Positions 19,678-31,630 of a DNA stretch of 64,000 bases are shown here, piece by piece. The DNA is from Cryobacterium sp. HLT2-28. Its GTDB lineage: Bacteria; Actinomycetota; Actinomycetes; Actinomycetales; Microbacteriaceae. The notes below the pieces were generated by a model, which was not told where the DNA came from, did no database searches, and worked only from the letters and a program-made list of their open reading frames with translations. A program made the position numbers and the translations under genes. Every line of letters starts with the position of its first letter. Positions within the stretch are counted from its first letter, which is position 1. The stretch spans positions 62,001 through 126,000 of the forward strand of contig NZ_SOFH01000022.1 in the NCBI RefSeq assembly GCF_004402495.1. Reading direction: 5' to 3'.

Positions 19678-19850
19678 TCACCCGGGCCCGTCCCGCCCTC
19701 GTCCACCCCGTCAGTGTCAGAGAACCTCCAAGAGCCATGTCAGCGAGTGTCATGGAATGAAGAACGGACGCTATCCGACCGCAGCCCTACTCTCTGACCT
19801 GACGTCCATCTGGGGTGTACTCCACATTGGTACGCGGATTGGGTGTTGAC

Positions 19851-22292
19851 CTATGACACGAGTACAACTGGCGCCGCGACAACAACAGCACGTATCGATG
19901 CCGCCCCAAGACCATAATCGTTTGCTCCCATGACGGGCTCCGCCTCGAGCAGTAGGTCAGATGGTTCGACAGCGATTACCTTGCATAATCCCTCGAAGTG
20001 ATGCCGGTCGACAGCGTTCATGAACGTGAAGGCCGCAGTTATGGTGGCTCCGATCTCGTCGGGAGTCACAGCCGCGTCAGTCTCGGGCGTTTCCGCATGC
20101 GAGTTGGCATGCATGAAGCGCGTGAGCTGAAGCCGAAGCGCGTCAGCGTCACCCATGTACCCGAGGTCGTCCAGGGTTGCACCGATATCCCTCATGGCAT
20201 TGGTGAAGTTTCCCACCGAGGTCGGACTCTTGAATGCGAGAAAGGTCTCCAACATGCGCCGCAACACGTTCGGATAGAGCAGCATTGCATCGAGCCTCTT
20301 CTCCATTGAGGAATCGACAGCAAGAGCGGCGTGAGCGCGGGCGACGGTGATAAAGGCGTGGTGGTAGGACGATCGAACCTTCACTCGCGTGTCCTCATTC
20401 GGAGGCCAGACAATGAATCTGGGCACTCGTTTCTTTATGCCGGTCACATCTTCATGAGGTGCGATCAGCTCGAAGCAGTTCGAGGGGTAGGTCCTGTTGG
20501 TTGCCCCGCGCTTCCCAGGCAGGCCCTCGATCTGGATATCCCACTGGCGAAACAGTTCGAAGTTGTGCGTCAACAGAAAGACCTGTCCGATGTGACTCTT
20601 GGAGACAGTCTCGCTCCAGATATAAGTCGAGATGCCCATCGAAGCGCCATTGTCGAGGCTGGACACAGGGTCGTCAATCACGACGATCGGCTTGCCAGAG
20701 CGCGAGTCCGCACGCTTAACGTTCTCGAGGAAATGGATGAGCGTGATCGCTGTGCGCTCTCCGGTGCTTAGATCACGCGCAGGCTTGCCGTGGCGGGTTA
20801 CCTGATAGTGCTTGCCGTCAGGAAGCAACTCGAATGACAGCTCGTTGCGCCCCAGAATTCGGGTTAGTTCCTTTGCCATCACGTCAGCGCTCGGTAGAGG
20901 ATCGCCCTCGACGTTCTCGAGCGCGGCGGCTTCCTCGCGGTACTGCCTCAGTGTCTTTTCGAGGTCACCCATGGCCGTCCTGGCCTGCTTGGCATTCTCG
21001 TCCAACTCAATTATTTTGTCTTCTGACTCTTTGAGGAGATGCAGCTCAACCTTCTTTGCAGCCTGCCGTACCAGCGTCGCATGCTCGGAGACACGGGCAT
21101 TGTGATCTTTCAGAGCCTGCTCGATCTTTGCGCCATCGACCGCTGGCGCTTGGGTGAAGTCATACTCGACCCGCGCGACCACATTGGACCGCTTCTTTTC
21201 TAGTGCACCCAGCAACCTCTCGAGCCACTTGTCTAGGACGTCAACCTGGGTCTTCGCGTTGGCGTGGGCTTTCTTGAAGCCGTCACGGAGATCGTCGAAC
21301 AGTGAGCCAGAAATCGCACCATCGCCAAGCAGACCCTGCAGCGAGGCTCGTGTTGTTTTGATTTCTTGGATCAGAGCATCGGTAGTCCGCTGCGCAGCCT
21401 CGACTTCGTCTGAGAAGTGCTGCTCAATCTGCTTCTTCCTGTCCGCGAGGAGATCGCCGCCACAGAAGATGCACGTATCCAAATCTTCGTGGATGAGGCG
21501 ACCGTTCTCGACCCAGCTCGATGCCTCCTCGTGCTCCCTCAACGTGTCGAGGACCACGGAAACCGGCGAGGCTGCAAGTGCTTCCGCCGATTCGCAGGGC
21601 AATTCCGACCTAATCGTGCACGAATACGACTCGGTGGCGACGGCCTGCCGCTCGTCCGAGTTGACGGTTGCCAGCGCGGTGTTTTTGTCCTTGTCAGAAA
21701 GCAATGTCCACGCAGTGCGCGACCCTGCGAAACGTGTCCTGACCACGCCCTTGCTGTAGCTGCCGTTGGAGCGGTATTCGCCGCCAGCGCGACTGAGAGC
21801 GGTAACGACGCCTCGGGCGATCGTTGTGTGCTCCTCTGTCAGCGTCTTATCCGCATTCAGTGATGTCTTTGCGACCTTGGTCAATTCTCGACTGGTAGTC
21901 ACGATGACGCCGTTTAGTTCAGTAAGGCGCCTCTCATTCTCGACTGTGCGCTCACCGAGCGTAAGTACCGCTTCGACTTCACTGTCCTCGCCGAAGTCGT
22001 GGTTGCGAGCGACGTAGCCATCGCTAAACACGAAGACTTGCTCGAACTCCGCGTCGTGCGTTTGACTGCTCTGACGATCGTTGCCCTTGTTCACGTTGCT
22101 CATCCGGATCGAAACCCGGGGATACCCGCCGCTCTCGCTATCGAGACCATCGAGTGCGCGAGCGAGTGAAGTCTTGCCCGCGCCATTGGTGCCGTAGATC
22201 AGGTTGATGCGCTCGAAATCAGGAACAGACGTGTTCCACCGGTAGTTCTCGAAAATTCCGCAGTCTCTTATCGACTCGAAGCGTCGGAGCAT
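19851..22292 (-). CDS. RloC/PrrC-like AAA ATPase with CxxC hook and HEPN-type C-terminus
   Basis: The 813-aa protein belongs to the AAA_13/SMC-like group. Walker A is GTNGAGKT (34-41). Coiled-coil segments flank a CIFCGG motif (C274, C277), a likely zinc hook. The ABC signature is LSTGERTAI (508-516) and Walker B is IVVIDDPVSSLD (536-547). The C-terminal domain has LRRMLETFL and then RFMHANSH (R725 to H732), an R-x6-H motif with Asn as in HEPN ribonucleases, the superfamily to which PrrC and RloC anticodon nucleases are assigned. I infer a DNA-integrity-triggered RNase that stops translation when restriction is disabled. The start at 22292 overlaps the Res stop by one base (TAATG); an ATG four codons upstream is less likely. 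It is last in the operon. Confidence 0.82.
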   Translation of the reverse strand: MLRRFESIRDCGIFENYRWNTSVPDFERINLIYGTNGAGKTSLARALDGLDSESGGYPRVSIRMSNVNKGNDRQSSQTHDAEFEQVFVFSDGYVARNHDFGEDSEVEAVLTLGERTVENERRLTELNGVIVTTSRELTKVAKTSLNADKTLTEEHTTIARGVVTALSRAGGEYRSNGSYSKGVVRTRFAGSRTAWTLLSDKDKNTALATVNSDERQAVATESYSCTIRSELPCESAEALAASPVSVVLDTLREHEEASSWVENGRLIHEDLDTCIFCGGDLLADRKKQIEQHFSDEVEAAQRTTDALIQEIKTTRASLQGLLGDGAISGSLFDDLRDGFKKAHANAKTQVDVLDKWLERLLGALEKKRSNVVARVEYDFTQAPAVDGAKIEQALKDHNARVSEHATLVRQAAKKVELHLLKESEDKIIELDENAKQARTAMGDLEKTLRQYREEAAALENVEGDPLPSADVMAKELTRILGRNELSFELLPDGKHYQVTRHGKPARDLSTGERTAITLIHFLENVKRADSRSGKPIVVIDDPVSSLDNGASMGISTYIWSETVSKSHIGQVFLLTHNFELFRQWDIQIEGLPGKRGATNRTYPSNCFELIAPHEDVTGIKKRVPRFIVWPPNEDTRVKVRSSYHHAFITVARAHAALAVDSSMEKRLDAMLLYPNVLRRMLETFLAFKSPTSVGNFTNAMRDIGATLDDLGYMGDADALRLQLTRFMHANSHAETPETDAAVTPDEIGATITAAFTFMNAVDRHHFEGLCKVIAVEPSDLLLEAEPVMGANDYGLGAASIRAVVVAAPVVLVS

Positions 22293-25279
22293 TACAGATT
22301 CCACTTCTCCGGCACTGAACGCTCATAGTCATCGATGCCGATCGCAGCGAAGTGTTTCTTGGCGGACTTGATCTTCGCGAGCTCGCTCGGGCGTAGCTTC
22401 GAGTCGTCGAGGGTGCCCTTGGTCTCGCGGATCATGTAGATCCGATCCTCGCCATCCTCCTGCTTGATAATCGCCCAGTCCGGGTTGTAGGGGCCGACCG
22501 GAGTGTCGATCTTGAACTTGGCCGGCAGCTTCATGAACAGCTTGATGTCCTCGCGGGTGTCGAGCTTCTCCGCAAATTGCCGCTCGATGTCGGAGTCGTA
22601 GACGACGTAGTCGAAGTCAGCCTTCTGCTTGTTCTTGACCAAGTACATATGGTCGAGGAAGCGCTCCTTCTCCTCCAGCCCATCCTTCTGCAGTTCGCGC
22701 AGCTCGTACACACTGCCGGCGATCTTCTCGTACTGGATACCCTCGACAACGATCCTCGCTAGTTCACCCTGGAGGACACGCTTGGTCATCGCGATGAAAT
22801 CGTTCGGGTTGCCAATGAACTCGCCCAATCGCTCACTGCCGATCAGGATGTCGACGATGGTCTTTCGGGTCAGTGACGTCGCCTCTTGCAGCTCGGTGAC
22901 GATGTTGGGCAGGTCGTAGCTGCCCTTGAGATCGGCCGATCGGGTTCCGAGCTCTTCTCCCTTGGCCCCGCCGCGCAGCACGCGCACGCCGGCCCGGGTG
23001 ACCTGGATGCGAAGCGGCTCGATGGCTGGCGCGTCCTGAATCGCGCTAATTGTCTTCTGAATGATCTCGTCGCGGTCCACTCTCACCCGGTAGGTCGTCT
23101 TGCGGCTGATAGCGTGCCAGAATTCCTCGAACTCGGGAGTCGTGTAGAGCTGTTTATTCAGGGTGAGCGGCGCACGCTGGCTCTTCGGCTTGACGTACTT
23201 CTCGATGCTGGCACGACCGACGAGTTCAACGATCTCCGTCTCGTAAGGCTTGAGATGCGCCGGAAGCCCAAGCGAAAACCCGATGGTATTCGGCAGGAAC
23301 TTCGAGGTGACCTTGCCGACCTTAATGAAGCCATCGGCTGCGAGATGGTCGTAGACCTCCTTCGACCATGCGTAGCCGAACGGATCCTCCGTGACTACGC
23401 CGTCCTGATCTTGGCGCGGAATTTTGGCGAACTCGTTGACACGCACTTGGCCGATCTCGACACCAGCGGCCTTGTACTCATTCTGGAGGCTCTTGGCGAA
23501 CGCCTGATACGACTCGTTGGCGATGACGGTCAGAGTGGCGACGCCGCGATCGCCAACACGCTCGTAGCCTTTGTCGGTCTTGGTTACCGGAAGGCGCAGC
23601 CCACGCCCGATAGTCTGACGGCGCTCGACTTCGGCGCCCATCTCTCGCAAGGTACAGATCTGGAAGACATTCGGATTGTCCCAACCTTCACGCAGCGCCG
23701 AGTGGCTGAAAATGAACCGAACAGGCTCATCTTGATCGAGCAGACGCTCCTTGTCCTGCATGATCAGTTCGTACGCGTCATCATCTGCTTTCGTTTTCCC
23801 AGTCGAGTCCTGCGCCAGGACATTCTTTCCGCGCTTGATCTGGGAGAAGTAGGCCCGGCGCAGCTCGCTCGGTGCCTGCGGCAACAGTTCCTGCCAGCGG
23901 GCAGACTTGGTGCGTTCCTCGACGAAGACCTCGTCGAACCACTGCACAAAGTCTCCATCGGCGTTGTCGTTCGTCGTTCCAGCGCCGAGATAGCTGGCAA
24001 CCTTGTCGACAAAGAAAAGACTGAGCACCTTAATTCCCTTGTCACGCAGCATCGATTCCTTGCGGAAGTGCTCGCGAATGGTCTCACGGATCATCTCCTT
24101 GTAGATCGCACCAGTAGCGCCGCCGATGGTCTCGCCCTCGTAGAGCAGGCCGTGCGTGGTGAGTTCGATGGAGGCTGGTTCACCACTGGAGGTGATGCTC
24201 ATCTCATTGATTCGCCAGCCCTCATATGCCGGGTTGTTGGTAAGGCGTTCACCTGAGAGTTCCTGATGCTGGCGCACACCCACCTCACGGCGCTCCAGCG
24301 CGCCGTCCGCCCTGCGGACGGAAAGTTCAAGCCGAGCTGACCAGCTAGGGTCCCGCTTGACCGATACGAGCTTGATGTACGGAGCGGCGTCAGCTCCCTG
24401 TTGTTGCACCTCAGCGACGACGATCTGCTTAACCAGCCCAAGGTCGTGCGCGTCGACCGGGTCGAGCCGGTAGACGACGTTGCGCTGCTTCTTGTGGGTC
24501 GCCGAGTAGCGGAGGGTGAAGACTGGATCGAGTTCCCCAATCGCCGACTGGGAAAGCTGGGACTCCATGTTTTGCGGCTCGTCCATGATGACGACCGGGT
24601 GCGTGGCCTTGAGGTAGTCAATCGGGCGCAGGCCGTTCAGTTTGTCGCGGGTCTGATGGATGATCCGTGTGTTTGCGTCGCCGCGGATCGAGTCAATGGT
24701 CATGACGAGAATCTGGACGTTTGTCGACGTGGCGAATGCCTGCACTTCCTCGGCGTTCTTACCGGAGTAGACCGAGAAGTCGAATGGGAATGCCGGGTAA
24801 AGCTCGCGAAAGTGTTGACGCATGAGGCGGATGCTCGTACTTACACCCTCACGGATTGCCACGCTTGGCACGAGAATCACGAATTTAGTGAAGCTGTATT
24901 TGTCGGCCAACTCGAATATCGTGCGGAGGTAGACGTAGGTTTTACCTGTGCCCGTCTCCATCTCGACGTCGAAATCGAGCGCGGAGTCGAATAACCTCGG
25001 TGCAACCTCGAGGCCGCCCTGGTCCTGGACGTGCTGCATATTGTCGAGAATAAGTTCGGGTTCGAGCACAAGGCAGTTGCCGATCGCACCAACCTCCTGT
25101 GTCAGATCGATGTCCAAGCTGACCTGGCCCTCAGAGTCGTGCACGTCCACTGATCCGCGAAGCGTCGTGATGAGTTTTTCGGCGTCTTTCGGCTGGCCGT
25201 CAAACAATCCGATGACCGAGTTGATGGCGTCGAGCTGATACTGCTGGCTGGCGTCGAACTGGAAACCCGCACTACTCAT
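22292..25279 (-). CDS. res: Type III restriction endonuclease subunit Res
   Basis: The 995-aa protein is a superfamily 2 helicase-nuclease. Walker A is METGTGKTYVY (motif 108-114) and the Walker B variant is MDEPQN (D233-Q236). Motif VI lies in RRQTIGRGLRLPV. The C-terminal PD-(D/E)xK nuclease is seen as YNPDWAIIK followed by IRETKGT near residues 930-960. Res translocates along DNA with ATP and cleaves when two Mod-recognised sites meet. The start at 25279 overlaps the Mod stop by one base in TAATG, so Mod and Res are translationally coupled. All key motifs are intact and the length is normal for the family. Confidence 0.95.
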   Translation of the reverse strand: MSSAGFQFDASQQYQLDAINSVIGLFDGQPKDAEKLITTLRGSVDVHDSEGQVSLDIDLTQEVGAIGNCLVLEPELILDNMQHVQDQGGLEVAPRLFDSALDFDVEMETGTGKTYVYLRTIFELADKYSFTKFVILVPSVAIREGVSTSIRLMRQHFRELYPAFPFDFSVYSGKNAEEVQAFATSTNVQILVMTIDSIRGDANTRIIHQTRDKLNGLRPIDYLKATHPVVIMDEPQNMESQLSQSAIGELDPVFTLRYSATHKKQRNVVYRLDPVDAHDLGLVKQIVVAEVQQQGADAAPYIKLVSVKRDPSWSARLELSVRRADGALERREVGVRQHQELSGERLTNNPAYEGWRINEMSITSSGEPASIELTTHGLLYEGETIGGATGAIYKEMIRETIREHFRKESMLRDKGIKVLSLFFVDKVASYLGAGTTNDNADGDFVQWFDEVFVEERTKSARWQELLPQAPSELRRAYFSQIKRGKNVLAQDSTGKTKADDDAYELIMQDKERLLDQDEPVRFIFSHSALREGWDNPNVFQICTLREMGAEVERRQTIGRGLRLPVTKTDKGYERVGDRGVATLTVIANESYQAFAKSLQNEYKAAGVEIGQVRVNEFAKIPRQDQDGVVTEDPFGYAWSKEVYDHLAADGFIKVGKVTSKFLPNTIGFSLGLPAHLKPYETEIVELVGRASIEKYVKPKSQRAPLTLNKQLYTTPEFEEFWHAISRKTTYRVRVDRDEIIQKTISAIQDAPAIEPLRIQVTRAGVRVLRGGAKGEELGTRSADLKGSYDLPNIVTELQEATSLTRKTIVDILIGSERLGEFIGNPNDFIAMTKRVLQGELARIVVEGIQYEKIAGSVYELRELQKDGLEEKERFLDHMYLVKNKQKADFDYVVYDSDIERQFAEKLDTREDIKLFMKLPAKFKIDTPVGPYNPDWAIIKQEDGEDRIYMIRETKGTLDDSKLRPSELAKIKSAKKHFAAIGIDDYERSVPEKWNL

Positions 25280-27159
25280 TAGGCCGTCCAGACTTCGATG
25301 CCCTTGCTCTTTGCGAGCTGGGCCAGGTTGGTCTTGAGTTCGTCGTCGCCGTGGAAGGCGTCTTCAAGGATGATGATGCGCGTCGGCGATTCATTGACGA
25401 AGTCCCGGAGTTGGTCCAGCGTCGGCTTGACGTGCTCGTTTAGGTAGGCGAGCACGCCAACGTCACCGTCCGGGTCACGAACGATCCTGACTTCGAGGCC
25501 AGCCACCTCCGCAGCGGAGACTGCTTCGGTCAGGGAATAGCCCTGTTTAAGAAGTATCTCCGTAAGCAGTACGTCTGCGGTCGCGTCGTCAGTAGCACTG
25601 TCGCGGAGGCTCAGCAGATGGTGCTGCAGTGCGTTCTCCTCTACGTCGCTGGAGACTTTCCACTTCGAGAAATTCGTATCGGCGAGCTTGAATGCCCGGA
25701 ATCCTAGGTCGAGTGGAGCGTCCGGCGTATCAAGCTGGTCGCCAGACTCGGCAAGGATCGTCTCACCGGCCAGCACGATTCGTCGGCGAGAGATATCAGC
25801 AATTGTATTGAAGCCTGCTTCTCTCGCTTCCGACTTGTCGGGCGTTGGCTCCGGTAGCTGAGTCATGATGAACCGACGCCTCCCACCGTCTTCAGCGTTC
25901 AGTTGCATTACAGCGTGAGCTGTGGTGGAACTGCCCGCAAAGAAATCCAACACAATCGCGTCTGGACCAACGGATGCCAGCTGCAGAATGTATTTCAAGA
26001 GTTTGACTGGCTTCGGGGTATCGAAAACGTCCTCAGGCATGAGTCTCATCAACTCGTACTTGGCTTGTCTGTTGTGCCCAGTCCGGTCGAGGTCAATCCA
26101 TAAGCTGGATGGTGGCAGCCCTTTCGTGTCCCAAAGGTAGGTTCGCCGCCGAATGCTCTTGCCATCGGGTGTAAAACGTATCTCGCCAGAAGCAATCTTC
26201 TCTTGCATGGCCTCTTTCGACCATCGCCATCCATTCTTCGGAGGATCAATTCCGATGCCCTGGGGAGAGGTGAGGATGTAGGTCAGGTTCTCTCGATAAT
26301 TGGGTGAGTTGAGAGGGTTGCCATCAAAATACGGGCCTCTGGGATCAGCGTCCGGGTTCTTGAAGTGCCCCTGCTTATTTTCGTCCGAGATCCTTGCGGG
26401 AACCCACTGGCTACTTCTGGCATAGATGAGGGTGTGATTGTGGTCTAGAGAGAACCGCTTGGCGTCATTGTTACTATTATCTTTTGAGCGCCAAATCGCG
26501 TCCGCGATGAAGTTATTCTCACCGAAGATTTCATCACACAGACGACGAAGGTTTGCCACTTCATTGTCGTCAATCGAGATGAATATCACACCATCGTCAG
26601 TCATCAAGTTGCGCGCGAGTTTGAGCCGCGGGTACATCATGTTGAGCCAGTTCGAGTGGTATCGCCCCTCGGCCTCGCTATTCGTCGAGACCTTCTTTCC
26701 CTCCTCGTTGACCTGGCGGGTCCATTCGAGGTAGGTGTCCAGTCCCTCCTTGAAATTGTCCGGGTAGACGAAGTCCTTGCCCGTGTTGTACGGCGGATCG
26801 ATATAGATCAGTTTGACCTTGTTGTGATAGTGCTTCTGCAGCACTTTCAGCACTTCGAGGTTGTCGCCCTCGATGAAGATGTTCTGCGTCGTTTCCCAGT
26901 CTTTCGAGTTCTCGAAGTCGGGATTCAGAGTCGCTGTCGTAGGCTCCTGCGCAGCACGAAGGGCGCGCTTCTTGCCGGGCCAGAACAGACCGAATCGCTC
27001 GCTGCTGTCAGCGACGTCCGACCCGAGCAACTCCTTGAGCTTCTCCACATCAAGTTTGCCGTCGGCAATGGCCTCGGGGATCAGATCGGCAAGTTGCGCT
27101 GCCAGTTCGGTCTGAAAGTTCGGGGTGGCAGATGCCGTTTCGTAGATATCGTGAGTCAT
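25279..27159 (-). CDS. mod: Type III DNA adenine methyltransferase subunit Mod
   Basis: The 626-aa protein is a beta-class N6-adenine or N4-cytosine methyltransferase. The catalytic DPPYNTGKDF is at about 121-130, preceded by the FIEGDNLEVLKVL segment. The SAM-binding LDFFAGSSTTAHAV comes after the central target-recognition region, the beta order. It provides recognition and methylation for the Res partner. I chose the ATG at 27159 because AAAGAG lies nine bases upstream and MTHDIYETAS is a natural N-terminus. An ATG at 27237 would add 26 unusual residues and overlap the helicase gene. It is separated from the helicase stop by 59 bases and coupled to res. The specificity site is not predictable by eye. 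Confidence 0.95.
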   Translation of the reverse strand: MTHDIYETASATPNFQTELAAQLADLIPEAIADGKLDVEKLKELLGSDVADSSERFGLFWPGKKRALRAAQEPTTATLNPDFENSKDWETTQNIFIEGDNLEVLKVLQKHYHNKVKLIYIDPPYNTGKDFVYPDNFKEGLDTYLEWTRQVNEEGKKVSTNSEAEGRYHSNWLNMMYPRLKLARNLMTDDGVIFISIDDNEVANLRRLCDEIFGENNFIADAIWRSKDNSNNDAKRFSLDHNHTLIYARSSQWVPARISDENKQGHFKNPDADPRGPYFDGNPLNSPNYRENLTYILTSPQGIGIDPPKNGWRWSKEAMQEKIASGEIRFTPDGKSIRRRTYLWDTKGLPPSSLWIDLDRTGHNRQAKYELMRLMPEDVFDTPKPVKLLKYILQLASVGPDAIVLDFFAGSSTTAHAVMQLNAEDGGRRRFIMTQLPEPTPDKSEAREAGFNTIADISRRRIVLAGETILAESGDQLDTPDAPLDLGFRAFKLADTNFSKWKVSSDVEENALQHHLLSLRDSATDDATADVLLTEILLKQGYSLTEAVSAAEVAGLEVRIVRDPDGDVGVLAYLNEHVKPTLDQLRDFVNESPTRIIILEDAFHGDDELKTNLAQLAKSKGIEVWTA

Positions 27160-27218
27160 TCGGTGAATCTCTTTCGTAGTATCAACAATTTGCATCGGGC
27201 TTCTGAATGGCCCGTCGT

Positions 27219-30131
27219 CTATGCGGCAATCCGCCATCGGATCGTAAACAAGTGCTCAGTGTTCTGCGTGCCCTGAAGTGACTGCTCGATGAGATCCAGG
27301 AATTTGTCTGCTTCGGCGCGGAGTTGTTGGCGAGTCCCTCGGAAGTTCTCGTCCGCATCCTCAGCGCGCTGCTCCCACTTACGGGCTTCTTTCTTCAAGC
27401 GAAGCTGCTCCATCGGGTCGTCGGCCTGGCGGGCAAGCTTGCGCGCTTCCTTCTCCTTGGCCCGGTAGTCCCGGATCGCACCCTCGTGCTCAGCCTTGCG
27501 GTCCTGTTGATTGCGGTAAATCAGTTCCTCTTGCTGGTCGTAGTAACGAGAGTTGCGGCCTTGAACTTCCTTCCCCAACTCGCTGCGTCGGGCGGTGAGC
27601 TGAGGCGTGAATCGAGCCTCGTCAATTGCCACCGCCTGCTCACCGATACTGGTGCACGCCAGGTCGAGTATGTCAGCGGCATACTCGTCGTCCAGCCACC
27701 CGCCATCGTCAGTCAGCCCACCCGCCAGGATGTACGACTCGGAGACATCTTCGTCGCGGGCCTTCATGCTGAACGTGACGAGGTTAACCGTCAGCTCACC
27801 GCTGGAGCCTTCCAACGCCTTGACAGCGCTGCTCGCGCGCTCAGACGCGCTCAACGAAAAGGTCAGTTCCCGAGGAGGGGTGTACTGGGACTTCGAAGTG
27901 TCGACGACATGCTGGGCCAGCGCGCTCGAGTATCGGTACTGGTGTGCGTTCTCCAGCGGCCGCGACTTGAAGAAGTATCGCCCGGTCGGTGCATCGTTGA
28001 TCGGTGACTCGTGAAGCACGAAGTTTCGCCCGTCACCCTCAAAGGTCGCAAGAGAGTGGAGCCCGTGCCTGGTCACCGCTAGCAGCAGGCGCTCAAACTT
28101 GTTGAGGACCTCGCCTGACTGCGCGTCATATGCCTTGAGACGGTCTTGGACGTGGGGATCAAGGTTGTCAAATACCTTCGCCTTGGCAGTTGCCATCTCC
28201 CGGGAGATTTCAGATGCATACCGCCCTTCGAGCTCCTTGAACGCGATATTGAGATCATCGGCCGTCCGACAGCGAGTCAGGATCTCGCCGATCATCTTCT
28301 CGAAGTCGAGCCCGTCCTCGATCGCACCCAAAACCTCATCACTGGCACCAAAGACGCTCTCGAAGAGGTGGAACTTGTTCGCTAGCAGTTCGAGAATGCG
28401 CTGCTCTGCAATGTTGCCTTTGTTGGAGAAGTTGACGACCACGACGTTGTGCTTCTGTCCGAATCGATGCACCCGTCCGATGCGCTGCTCAACTCGCTGC
28501 GGGTTCCACGGCAGATCATAATTGACCAGCATCGAGCAGAACTGCAGGTTGATGCCCTCGGCGGCTGCCTCAGTCGCGATCATGATCTTGCCTTCGGCAC
28601 GGAAGTAGTCCACTAACGCCTTGCGCCGATCGGCGGAGACAATGCCCGTGATCAAGTCTCCGTCCTTGTTGGCCCTGAGCCATGCCTGGTAGATCGACGT
28701 CTGCTCCGGCGAGTTGTTCGAGCCGTTGAAGAGCACAACACCCTCGCCACGGCCTGAATCCTTCAGAGTGCGGGCAATGTACTCTTGCGTTTTGGTCGAG
28801 TCGGTGAAGATGATCGCTTTCTCCGGTGCCCCCAGCTCATGGAGACGTTCAAACCCCAGGTCGATCGCCTCGCCAAGCTTGACCGCCTTCTGATTGACAG
28901 TGATCGACCGTGCAAGTTCGGCGTACTCACGTAGTTCCCCGACCTCGGCCTGCATTTCCCGCGCAAGCGTCTCGTCCAGCGAACCCTCCCCGAGCGCCGA
29001 GAAGCCTGCCGTGGTTTGAATGGTGGCCTCGATCTCCTCAGCCTCTTCCAGCTCTTCGCCGGTGATTTCGTCATCGACCACGAAGTCAGCAGCGACTAGT
29101 CCACCGCGGTTGTCTCGACGCTGGCCGGCCGCCACTTCGCTCGCGAGGCGGTTCGCAATATTCTCGAGCGTGCTCGCCACGGCGTACGTCGAAGATCCCA
29201 GTCGCTTGCGGATTATGAGCGCTGACAGGTGACGCTGGGATCCAGCGAAGGCGAACAGCTCGTCGCGCTGTAGGTAGTCGTTGACGAGGTCGTACAGCTT
29301 CACTTCGTTGGGGGAGGGCGTGAACTCCACCGTCAGCGGTAGACGCTTGGTGAAGTGGATGTACTTGTCTGCATCCCGGCGCAGCGTTCGTTTCGAAATC
29401 GTTGCGACTCGCTCGACCAAGTCGTCGTCACCATTCAGATCACGGTTTTTGACGTACCGCTCCCGGAACGCTTCGAGCGAGTAGAAATAGCTCGGATCAA
29501 ACACGGACACCAGTCCGTAGAGCTCCTCCAGCTTGTTCTGCAGCGGGGTGGCTGTCAGCAGAACCGTCTTGTGTGCGCTGCCGACGACATGGGCGACGGC
29601 CTCGGCAGCCTTCGTCTTACCCGTCCAATAGTTACGTAGGCGGTGGGCCTCATCGGCAACGACGAGATCCCATGCTTTTAGCAACGACTGCTCGTGCCGC
29701 AATACGAACTCGTACGAGCAGATCAGTACCTGCGATGAGTGCGAACCGGACTGTGCCAGAACCGCATCCATCGTCTTTCGATCAAGGATCGAGGACGGGA
29801 TCAGGAACTTCTCGTGCAGCTCCTGTTGCCATTGCTGGCGAAGACTCGATGGAGTGATGATGAGGATACTGCGCCGCCGCTCAGCCCAATACTGCGAGAT
29901 GACTATGCCCGCCTCGATTGTCTTCCCGAGGCCGACCTCGTCGGCAAGGATCACACCCGGCAGAAAGGGTGTCTGAAGCGCGAAGAGTGCCGCATCGATC
30001 TGGTGAGGCTTCGGCTCGACTTGAGCGTCGAACAAAAGGCCGGCGAGCTTGCCCACGTGATCGTTGGCGTAGCTGCGCTGCAATTCATGCGCGTAATACT
30101 TCGCCTGGTAATTGGTGAGTGGATACGTCAC
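27219..30131 (-). CDS. SNF2/RapA-like helicase, first gene of the restriction operon
   Basis: The 970-aa superfamily 2 ATPase has a Q-motif region KPHQIDAALFAL (41-52), Walker A LADEVGLGKTIEAG (62-75) and DEAH in VVADEAHRLRN (158-167). Motifs V-VI are in GINLQFCSMLVNYDLPW and VEQRIGRVHRFGQ (about 530-565). The last 100 residues are a highly charged coiled coil. SNF2-like enzymes translocate on duplex DNA and displace proteins. Similar helicases act in DISARM and other phage-defence loci. The GTG start lacks a strong ribosome site. As first gene of a four-gene unit with Mod, Res and the RloC-like ATPase, it probably assists detection or remodelling of invading DNA; this role is inference. Confidence 0.9.
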   Translation of the reverse strand: MTYPLTNYQAKYYAHELQRSYANDHVGKLAGLLFDAQVEPKPHQIDAALFALQTPFLPGVILADEVGLGKTIEAGIVISQYWAERRRSILIITPSSLRQQWQQELHEKFLIPSSILDRKTMDAVLAQSGSHSSQVLICSYEFVLRHEQSLLKAWDLVVADEAHRLRNYWTGKTKAAEAVAHVVGSAHKTVLLTATPLQNKLEELYGLVSVFDPSYFYSLEAFRERYVKNRDLNGDDDLVERVATISKRTLRRDADKYIHFTKRLPLTVEFTPSPNEVKLYDLVNDYLQRDELFAFAGSQRHLSALIIRKRLGSSTYAVASTLENIANRLASEVAAGQRRDNRGGLVAADFVVDDEITGEELEEAEEIEATIQTTAGFSALGEGSLDETLAREMQAEVGELREYAELARSITVNQKAVKLGEAIDLGFERLHELGAPEKAIIFTDSTKTQEYIARTLKDSGRGEGVVLFNGSNNSPEQTSIYQAWLRANKDGDLITGIVSADRRKALVDYFRAEGKIMIATEAAAEGINLQFCSMLVNYDLPWNPQRVEQRIGRVHRFGQKHNVVVVNFSNKGNIAEQRILELLANKFHLFESVFGASDEVLGAIEDGLDFEKMIGEILTRCRTADDLNIAFKELEGRYASEISREMATAKAKVFDNLDPHVQDRLKAYDAQSGEVLNKFERLLLAVTRHGLHSLATFEGDGRNFVLHESPINDAPTGRYFFKSRPLENAHQYRYSSALAQHVVDTSKSQYTPPRELTFSLSASERASSAVKALEGSSGELTVNLVTFSMKARDEDVSESYILAGGLTDDGGWLDDEYAADILDLACTSIGEQAVAIDEARFTPQLTARRSELGKEVQGRNSRYYDQQEELIYRNQQDRKAEHEGAIRDYRAKEKEARKLARQADDPMEQLRLKKEARKWEQRAEDADENFRGTRQQLRAEADKFLDLIEQSLQGTQNTEHLFTIRWRIAA

Positions 30132-30589
30132 AGTGAAGGGCCATCCGTCATCGGATCAAGAATCCAGGTGCTGGAAGAAAACGAGTGCCCCACGATCGGC
30201 AAGTAGATTCGACAGCGCGCATCCATTCACCCTCCCCCTTGTCCACACAAATGCATGCGCGTCCTATTCCCCACGCCTGATCAAACAATACTGGCGGATT
30301 GCCACATGAGGCTTCTTGCTCTGACTGTCTGCGCGCGTGGGTTCGCTTGCAGGTGGGCGTTTTCGCAAGGCTGAGCCTCAGATCGACAACATGTTCTAGG
30401 TCTGGAGACCCGCCGTGGACCTGCGGAGAAGCGGCGGTTCTGGGGGTATATCGACCATTCGGAACGAGGGGAAACGGTCCAGTCCAGCGGTAACCTCTGG
30501 GGAGTCAGCAATCAGTCGGACGGAGCGGGTTCCCGCGTTCCCGGCCCGCACTGCATCTACAACATCGCCGAAGATTCAGGCAAGGATTA
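30132..30589. other. Divergent intergenic region between helicase operon and NERD gene
   Basis: These 458 bases separate two divergent transcription units and must hold the promoter of the restriction operon. It is AT-richer near 30240-30310. I see no confident -10/-35 pair, no long repeat and no RNA gene. Short frames on either strand lack ribosome sites. Confidence 0.5.
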
Positions 30590-31630
30590 ATGCCTGCTTT
30601 GCGGCGATCCGAGCGAATGGAAGTAGTCATGGAATCCCAGGGGGGAGGGAACCAGGCAGCAGACCAGACGGCAGTAGACCAGACAGTGGCGCGCCCGCAC
30701 ACGCCCGGAGCCGGGCGTAGAGCGGCGCCCCGGGTCATCCGGGACCTCCGGGGCAACGTCCCCGGGCAGGGCCTCATGATCGAGGTGCTCCGCCGCCAAG
30801 CGGAATCCGGAGAGATCGTCCCCGAGACCGGCGCCGTGCTCTTGACAGACGCCGCTGTGCCGTGGCGGATCGGCGCGCTCGGGGAGATCCAGGTTGGCGC
30901 GCACCTCGCGCAGCTCGGCCCGGAATGGTCCGTTCTGCACTCCGTTCCCGTCGGGAAGGGCGAGAGCGACATCGACCACGTCGTCATCAGCCAAGCCGGG
31001 GTGTTCACCATCAATACGAAACGGCACGCGGGCCAGAAAATCTGGGTCGCCGGGCGCGGGTTCATGGTCGGCAATCATAAGCAGCCGTACATTCGGAAGG
31101 CCAGCCAGGAAGCGAAACGTGCGGAGAAGATGCTCTCCCTGGCGACCGGGATGACGGTCCCCGTCTGCGGTGTCATCGCTCTCGTCGACCCGGCCAGCAT
31201 CACCCGGAAGGCCCCGCCCGAAGGCGACGGTGTCGAACTGCGCATCATCGACTCCCGCGACCTCTGCGCCACCGTCAGCGGCCGCCCCATCTTCAGCGTC
31301 GAACAGGTCGCCGCCATCGTCGCCGCGGCAGCGCAACCCGGGACCTGGCACGCGGGCCCACACTCCATCGAGGAACCCGCCGAGATCGCCGAAGCATTCC
31401 ACGCGCTAAGCGACCGCGTCGTGGACGAGGCGACGCCACCCGTCATCCTGCGCCCGCGCACCACGGCCTCCCCGGCAACCACGCGCACCCGTCAGCCAAC
31501 GGCGGTGAAGCCCCGCGCCGCCCGGCCCAGCAAGAGAGCCCAGAAAGCGAAGGAGAAGCGCCAGGCCGAGATCATCAAGCTCGTCGCCATCTGCGTCGGG
31601 CTGACCATTTGGTACGTCAGCACCCGCTAG
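30590..31630 (+). CDS. NERD-domain protein with C-terminal membrane anchor
   Basis: The 346-aa protein carries a NERD (nuclease-related) domain at about residues 90-220: WRIGALGEIQVGAHLAQLG, then SDIDHVVISQAGVFTINTK. These give the E, D and T/N-x-K residues of the restriction-endonuclease-like fold. The catalytic Q/E-x-K is here N-T-K, so nuclease activity is uncertain. A Pro/Arg/Ala-rich linker leads to a lysine-rich stretch and a single C-terminal hydrophobic helix (IIKLVAICVGLTIWYVS). The ATG at 30590 has AAGGA close upstream; ATG 30629 with GGAAG is an alternative start. It is divergent from the restriction operon. Confidence 0.85.
   Translation: MPALRRSERMEVVMESQGGGNQAADQTAVDQTVARPHTPGAGRRAAPRVIRDLRGNVPGQGLMIEVLRRQAESGEIVPETGAVLLTDAAVPWRIGALGEIQVGAHLAQLGPEWSVLHSVPVGKGESDIDHVVISQAGVFTINTKRHAGQKIWVAGRGFMVGNHKQPYIRKASQEAKRAEKMLSLATGMTVPVCGVIALVDPASITRKAPPEGDGVELRIIDSRDLCATVSGRPIFSVEQVAAIVAAAAQPGTWHAGPHSIEEPAEIAEAFHALSDRVVDEATPPVILRPRTTASPATTRTRQPTAVKPRAARPSKRAQKAKEKRQAEIIKLVAICVGLTIWYVSTR

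Follow-up and report, generated by a model that had tools for sequence, protein, structure and literature searches.

A predicted type III restriction-modification operon with a conserved SNF2 helicase and a probable exchange slot for back-up antiviral genes, filled by RloC in Cryobacterium sp. HLT2-28

The window, a 64,000-nucleotide stretch of the Cryobacterium sp. HLT2-28 genome, probably carries a type III restriction-modification (R-M) operon with an obligate SNF2 helicase and, at its 3′ end, an exchangeable slot for a back-up antiviral effector, which is RloC here.

The operon and its core proteins

On the minus strand of the window, between positions 19,851 and 30,131, the open reading frame listing gives four consecutive genes for an SNF2 helicase, Mod, Res and an ATPase (Table 1). 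The helicase stop and the Mod start are separated by a gap of 59 bases, and the Res start overlaps the Mod stop by one base (ccTAATGagt); longer in-frame alternatives begin with ATG at 27237 for Mod and with GTG at 22304 for the ATPase. A preliminary description of this DNA had reported four same-strand genes with 1-base TAATG overlaps and a 59-base gap, all of which is confirmed by the reading frame coordinates. The comparison with defence databases that it had proposed gave the same picture, since PADLOC and Pfam profiles name an SNF2 helicase, a type III methyltransferase, a type III restriction endonuclease and an AAA_13 ATPase. The arrangement of four genes of these families is far beyond chance.

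Table 1 Features of the window operon and genes found at or near the position after Res in homologous loci
Feature	Location	Strand	Remarks
SNF2-family helicase/translocase, first core gene	27219..30131	-	GTG start at 30131, 970 aa
Type III Mod, N6-adenine methyltransferase, second core gene	25279..27159	-	ATG start, 626 aa
Mod hypervariable middle, aa about 200-400, presumed target recognition region	25960..26562	-	Identity to relatives
Type III Res, SF2 helicase with C-terminal PD-ExK nuclease, third core gene	22292..25279	-	ATG start, 995 aa
Res/ATPase TAATG junction (ctgTAATGctc)	22290..22294	-	1-base overlap of Res stop and slot-gene start
RloC, AAA_13 ABC ATPase with HEPN-type RNase end, slot occupant	19851..22292	-	ATG start, 813 aa
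RloC zinc hook CIFC, aa 274-277 (C274, C277)	21462..21473	-	Both Cys invariant in 10 RloC proteins
RloC triad residues R678 and E682 (RRMLE)	20247..20261	-	Alignment; motif of PMC2610378
RloC triad residue H732 (NSH)	20097..20099	-	Alignment; 49 residues between E682 and H732
Whole inserted unit by homology breakpoints	19832..30363	-	Flank homology to genus mates
Occupant: OLD/GajA-like	L001, L026
Occupant: Dodola DolA-DolB	L002, L028
Occupant: AAA with TOPRIM-like C-terminal half	L005, L006
Occupant: Ppl-type	L005 (second gene), L009, L036; L013, L016		L013 and L016 more distant
Occupant: QatABCD	L017		QatA and QatC by profile
Occupant: Hachiman	L011, L033		HamA-like frame starts on Res stop; HamB by profile in L011
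Occupant: ApeA-type gene	L021
CBASS cyclase and 4TM effector	L032		0.9 kb down from Res
Occupant: other AAA_13 ATPases	L019, L023, L038
Occupant: STAND protein	L012
Occupant: RNase H/helicase protein	L014
Occupant: unknown protein, then GmrSD	L024
Occupant: IetA-like AAA and DUF6414 protein	L035

Mod matched the N6_N4_Mtase profile and the PADLOC type III methyltransferase profile (MTase_III, 651 bits), and it has the intact DPPY motif (aa 121) and the variable target region that are required of a type III Mod as a beta-class N6 methyltransferase. Its middle part has a mean identity to relatives of 25-39%, compared with 77-88% in the N-terminal part; this hypervariability of aa 200-400 is as expected for what is presumably the target recognition region. 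Res matched ResIII, RE_endonuc (PF19778) and the PADLOC type III endonuclease profile (REase_III, 872 bits), and all motifs by which a type III Res is recognized (Walker A, DEPQ, motif VI and PD...ExK) are intact. Sequence matches in the PDB were the EcoP15I Res for Res (E 2.8e-55), and one Mod of known structure together with the EcoP15I Mod for Mod; the entries matched by the two proteins are 4zcf and 6k0w. Type III R-M enzymes are Mod2Res1 complexes that act on an asymmetric site and, in an ATP-dependent manner, cut at sites lying head to head. The operon resembles EcoP15I in its Mod, with DPPY and a variable middle, and in its Res, with SF2 helicase and PD-ExK parts, but it adds an upstream SNF2 helicase, and its relatives often have a slot gene as well.

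In the helicase, profile search identified the domains SNF2-rel_dom and Helicase_C, and the motifs are intact (Walker A GLGKT at aa 67-71, DEAH at aa 160, QRIGRVHR). Its best profile match is DrmD_b with 588.7-592 bits against an equivalog cut-off of 950. The protein is thus related to DrmD and RapA, yet under the cut-offs of both models. Its sequence matches in the PDB are RapA and chromatin remodellers.

A best match to DrmD_b of 589-592 bits could also mean that the operon is a decaying relative of DISARM or BREX, in which a DrmD or BrxHII remnant acquired a type III R-M pair. We give this reading almost no credence, since the match is below the equivalog cut-off, DrmA, DrmB, DrmC, PglZ and DUF499 are absent among the operon and flanking proteins scanned, and the helicase is conserved across homologous loci as well as Res is. 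The operon shares with class 1 DISARM (DrmD-DrmMI) a related SNF2 helicase next to an adenine methylase, but differs from it in having no DrmA, DrmB or DrmC and a helicase under the DrmD cut-off. We rejected an assignment to DISARM (588.7 bits against 950; a scan of ten proteins from the operon and its flanks found no DrmA/B/C); the helicase itself gave a weaker cross-match to the DrmA model.

Conservation of the SNF2-Mod-Res core

Homologous operons were collected by a helicase scan of genome contigs, which returned 40 loci, nearly all of them actinobacterial. SNF2, Mod and Res are consecutive on one strand in all 35 loci with a long enough contig, and Mod is broken up by an insertion in L007. 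Helicases encoded on plasmids are 37-41% identical, and all distinct lineages opened combine this gene in a single locus with one gene like Mod and one for a Res-like helicase (Rhizobium, Deinococcus, Salmonella, Hymenobacter, E. coli, Roseomonas, Cupriavidus, Aeromonas, a planctomycete, Ketogulonicigenium and Paracoccus). Some plasmid loci have a Mod and Res of other families by BLAST, one locus is split by transposases, and defence-type genes often lie between the core genes (DUF262; AIPR with VapC; an Abi protein; AAA with DUF4276). Of the 297 class genomes, a single one apart from the genome of the window has this helicase subfamily, in a trio with Mod and Res (62% and 61% identity), and the class genomes whose Res is only 34-36% identical are without the helicase. 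From this gene order and homology, we conclude that SNF2-Mod-Res is a genuine conserved unit and that the fourth gene lies outside it. The earlier interpretation is supported in part: helicase, Mod and Res stay together in 35 of 35 complete loci and, in distant form, on plasmids of other phyla. A fixed four-gene system is not supported, as the window ATPase is absent from all 40 homologous loci. In L010 (1-11701), the tail end of a Mod and a whole second Res directly precede the full trio, apparently by tandem duplication of the operon.

An additional SNF2 protein was also found in viral contigs, which were scanned with Res as the anchor and without selection for helicase presence. Close relatives of the window helicase occur in five of these loci (L114, L115, L118, L120, L134) and weaker ones in two (L148, L154), and in many more the gene upstream of Mod encodes another kind of SNF2-type helicase, about 1,080 aa long, its subfamily reaching only about 60-100 bits to the window helicase. 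In two tested loci, a DUF4391 gene stands between this helicase and Mod (L124, 2976-12033, and L131, 547-9533; order SNF2-type helicase, DUF4391, Mod, Res), and their helicase-gap-Mod-Res spacing recurs in many of the Res-anchored viral contigs. These two loci are like the window operon in having an extra SNF2-type helicase upstream of Mod and Res, but unlike it in the helicase subfamily and in the DUF4391 gene. The provirus locus L114 (7030-17525) has the core order Mod-Res-SNF2; a DUF3644/restriction-endonuclease-like gene and a gene for a 547-aa protein without family follow this rearranged core. Because both the Res-anchored viral loci and the class trio carry such helicases, an added SNF2 motor is, as far as gene content tells, a common feature of type III loci and comes from more than one subfamily. 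Where gene content is concerned, the earlier view that Mod and Res normally suffice for a type III system is too simple, since many loci have an upstream SNF2-type helicase.

The position after Res

Related operons are homologous in DNA up to the stop codon of Res and no further. Of 595 locus pairs, 540 share more than 600 bases of alignable DNA in the final 1.2 kb of Res, but just about nine share any immediately after the stop. The Res reading frames end in a conserved tail, and the next start overlaps the stop in many loci (ATGA, GTGA or TAATG). We assigned the occupants of this position by profile search (Table 1). Where at least 1 kb beyond Res was available, the next same-strand gene is of defence type or its remnant in 24 of 32 loci, window included; a same-strand defence gene after Res is absent in the other eight (L004, L010, L015, L020, L022, L025, L027, L040). 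By these assignments, diverse genes occupy the position after Res, making it a variable slot. The slot of the class relative G139 (L107, 13363-19427) holds genes for a PD-(D/E)XK protein and a UvrD helicase-nuclease, which resemble an AddAB/AdnAB-type pair. Proteins in or near the slot with no or weak family match are encoded in L024 (8568-9653, 361 aa), L040 (18301-21921, 1,206 aa) and L012 (13427-17899, 1,490 aa); they are candidates for undescribed defence genes, for which the slot is a place to look.

The occupants have changed repeatedly: on a tree of SNF2 and Res, a minimum of 17 changes is required to account for the 14 occupant classes of 24 loci. L026, with which the window groups on this tree, has a 78% identical core and an OLD-type gene in its slot. 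Even near-identical cores have unlike occupants (L001/L028 97.3%, L005/L032 96.4%, L003/L008 96.8%, L012/L013 94.9%), the occupant of L003 being truncated by the contig end, with a resemblance of its first 43 residues to a SIR2 domain that was judged only by eye. Remnants were detected at four junctions. In L009 (12803-12910), the first and last codons of an AAA-TOPRIM gene are joined over 35 codons, L021 (17896-18045) has 49 codons with a QatA-like beginning, L008 (17916-18140) has 74 codons with a DolA-like beginning, and a further slot-gene remnant lies after 6369 in L036. All four are short, in frame and overlap the Res stop, and we read them, from their sequences, as fossils of former slot occupants. 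Evolution would exchange the occupant and preserve the core, so that lineages with a common restriction chassis would each have a second line of their own.

Could the Res 3′ end be a mere recombination point of a passive defence island, where slot genes act alone and are linked to the core just by mobility and expression? The conserved sequence upstream and free sequence downstream of this end would fit, as would homology breakpoints that bound the whole unit (see below), complete stand-alone systems among the occupants (Dodola, Qat, Hachiman, CBASS) and the activity of RloC alone in a heterologous host (PMC2610378). However, a mere insertion point needs no overlap between the starts of unrelated occupants and the Res stop, which is seen in many loci and would keep translation of the occupant coupled to that of Res. 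We consider a passive island unlikely.

The fourth gene and its relatives

RloC was described by Davidov and Kaufmann in 2008 as an ABC ATPase of 658-897 aa that is marked by a CX2C zinc hook and by the triad R-X3-E-X36-52-H, in which a serine often precedes the histidine (PMC2610378). The fourth protein of the operon, which matched AAA_13 (PF13166, 480 bits) and PADLOC PDC-S06 (404 bits), is within this size range with 813 aa and has both the zinc hook and the triad (R678-X3-E682-X49-H732, with S731). An alignment of ten RloC homologues, the others being 20-27% identical to the window protein, shows no variation at R678, E682, H732, C274 and C277. By the published marks, and as far as sequence can tell, the fourth gene is a real RloC; the earlier name, RloC-like HEPN ATPase, fits the ABC ATPase, zinc hook and triad. 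The residues proposed earlier as key were R725 and H732. The latter is invariant, but R725 was rejected as the catalytic arginine, being not conserved in several RloC homologues, whereas R678 is invariant. We also rejected an identification as PrrC (813 aa, zinc hook, type III partner; 21.5 bits with the PADLOC PrrC model), and other AAA_13 slot genes (third gene of L002, L019, L023, L038) as RloC, since they keep CX2C and lack the aligned triad. A search for PDB sequence relatives of the window RloC found none.

RloC proteins in general have an ATPase head interrupted by the insert that bears the zinc hook, a triad near the C-terminus, and as their activity the cleavage of the tRNA anticodon with loss of the wobble nucleotide. 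According to published reports, RloC responds to DNA breaks and is active without an R-M partner, and for this reason the window RloC may be independent of Res.

A class-wide search with the ATPase found just two true relatives, 25-27% identical; their surroundings are unrelated, with STAND, OLD, kinase and NERD genes and no Mod or Res homologues nearby. None of the ten plasmid relatives opened is next to type I or III R-M genes: they sit alone or near unrelated genes, one of them convergent with an McrBC pair. These neighbourhoods agree with the published rarity of the linkage, 8 of 72 RloC genes being in type I or III loci (PMC2610378). The window gene differs from published RloC in that its start overlaps a type III Res stop. 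The preliminary description had named two observations that would speak against its system, and both were made: the ATPase is missing from homologous loci, and its relatives stand beside unrelated genes.

A form of that proposal is a dedicated four-gene machine, in which the type III enzyme would specifically keep RloC silent, as EcoprrI does with PrrC. The single strand, the overlapping start codons, the intact RloC motifs, the PrrC/EcoprrI precedent and the eight RloC genes in type I or III loci all fit such a machine. Its probability is low in our view, since RloC is in 0 of 40 homologous operons, 0 of 10 plasmid and 0 of 2 class relatives adjoin type I or III R-M genes, and different occupants stand at the same junction. 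A specific partnership of RloC and a type III enzyme would have a single example, because RloC is in the slot only at the window locus.

The inserted unit in the window genome

The left flank is homologous to genus mates up to 19,831, a position 20 bases away from the stop codon of RloC, and the right flank is shared with another genus mate from 30,364. Since the flanks match different genus mates, the ends of the unit come from two separate breakpoints; no single contiguous empty site was found among the genus mates, and there are no terminal repeats of at least 10 bases at the unit ends. The G+C content of the four genes is 55-59%, compared with 64% for the window. Because of the flank breakpoints and this difference in G+C, the four genes seem to form a single insert here, the last of them being exchangeable over longer time. 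Next to the left end of the insert, at 19795-19831, lies a GACCTGACGTCCANCTGGGGTGTAC-form sequence that recurs with different neighbours in four genus mates (L099-L102) and may be a terminator or a repeated boundary sequence. A divergent gene for a NERD-domain (nuclease-related) protein (30590-31630) is just upstream of the operon, outside the inserted unit.

Discussion

According to our preferred reading, a restriction chassis with an exchangeable back-up effector, Mod would methylate host DNA, and Mod and Res would cut unmodified phage DNA, as their families suggest. The SNF2 motor may move on DNA and aid the complex, either by clearing bound proteins or by helping long-range communication. 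Co-expressed RloC would be silent until DNA breaks or failed restriction alter its ATPase state; once activated, it would cut the tRNA anticodon, so that translation stops and phage release is forestalled by death or stalling of the infected cell. The earlier proposal of restriction first and RNA cleavage second is thus reasonable for this strain, because the core is conserved and the last gene is of real RloC type, but RloC is not a fixed member.

Since the same junction serves unrelated systems, we consider it more likely that core and occupant are co-expressed and complement each other than that they are specific physical partners. Defence genes cluster anyway in defence islands, and a shared junction therefore need not mean joint function. 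Alternatively, the Res 3′ junction might be a docking point at which the type III complex silences whichever effector is encoded there and frees it upon anti-restriction or stalled cutting. We think docking unlikely; if true, one R-M chassis would guard chemically different killers (a tRNase, a TOPRIM nuclease, Qat, Hachiman, Dodola).

The principle of a back-up effector is already published for type I R-M and BREX. The rlo genes and PrrC in type I loci, and RloC in a few type I and III loci, were described as back-ups (PMC2610378), and HEPN genes with R-M systems have been described (PMC3710099). The operon resembles EcoprrI-PrrC in having an anticodon-nuclease-type gene in an R-M operon as a second line of defence. 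EcoprrI, however, is type I, and PrrC is about half the size, is without zinc hook and is embedded, whereas the window gene follows the core. BREX and the DUF499-centred, BREX-related Hma operons likewise have a core for modification and restriction, some subtypes including an SNF2 helicase, and contain swappable OLD/TOPRIM, HEPN or GmrSD auxiliary and back-up effectors (PMC12839542), but their core has DUF499 or PglZ and no type III Res. In comparison, the core studied here is Mod and Res, and the occupants stand at one fixed 3′ junction in Actinomycetota; a BREX or Hma assignment was rejected, as the ATPase is AAA_13 and PglZ or DUF499 matches are absent in the proteins scanned. The open-access literature searched yielded no description of a fixed 3′ slot on an SNF2-Mod-Res chassis, an absence that is weak evidence. 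The arrangement is therefore a variant of a known principle, and what may be new is the type III SNF2-Mod-Res chassis and its junction.

These operons are a near-ideal natural experiment on whether restriction and the neighbouring abortive systems cooperate or only travel together. Since cores that are 95-97% identical carry different systems at the same codon, slot swaps can be tested directly in one host.
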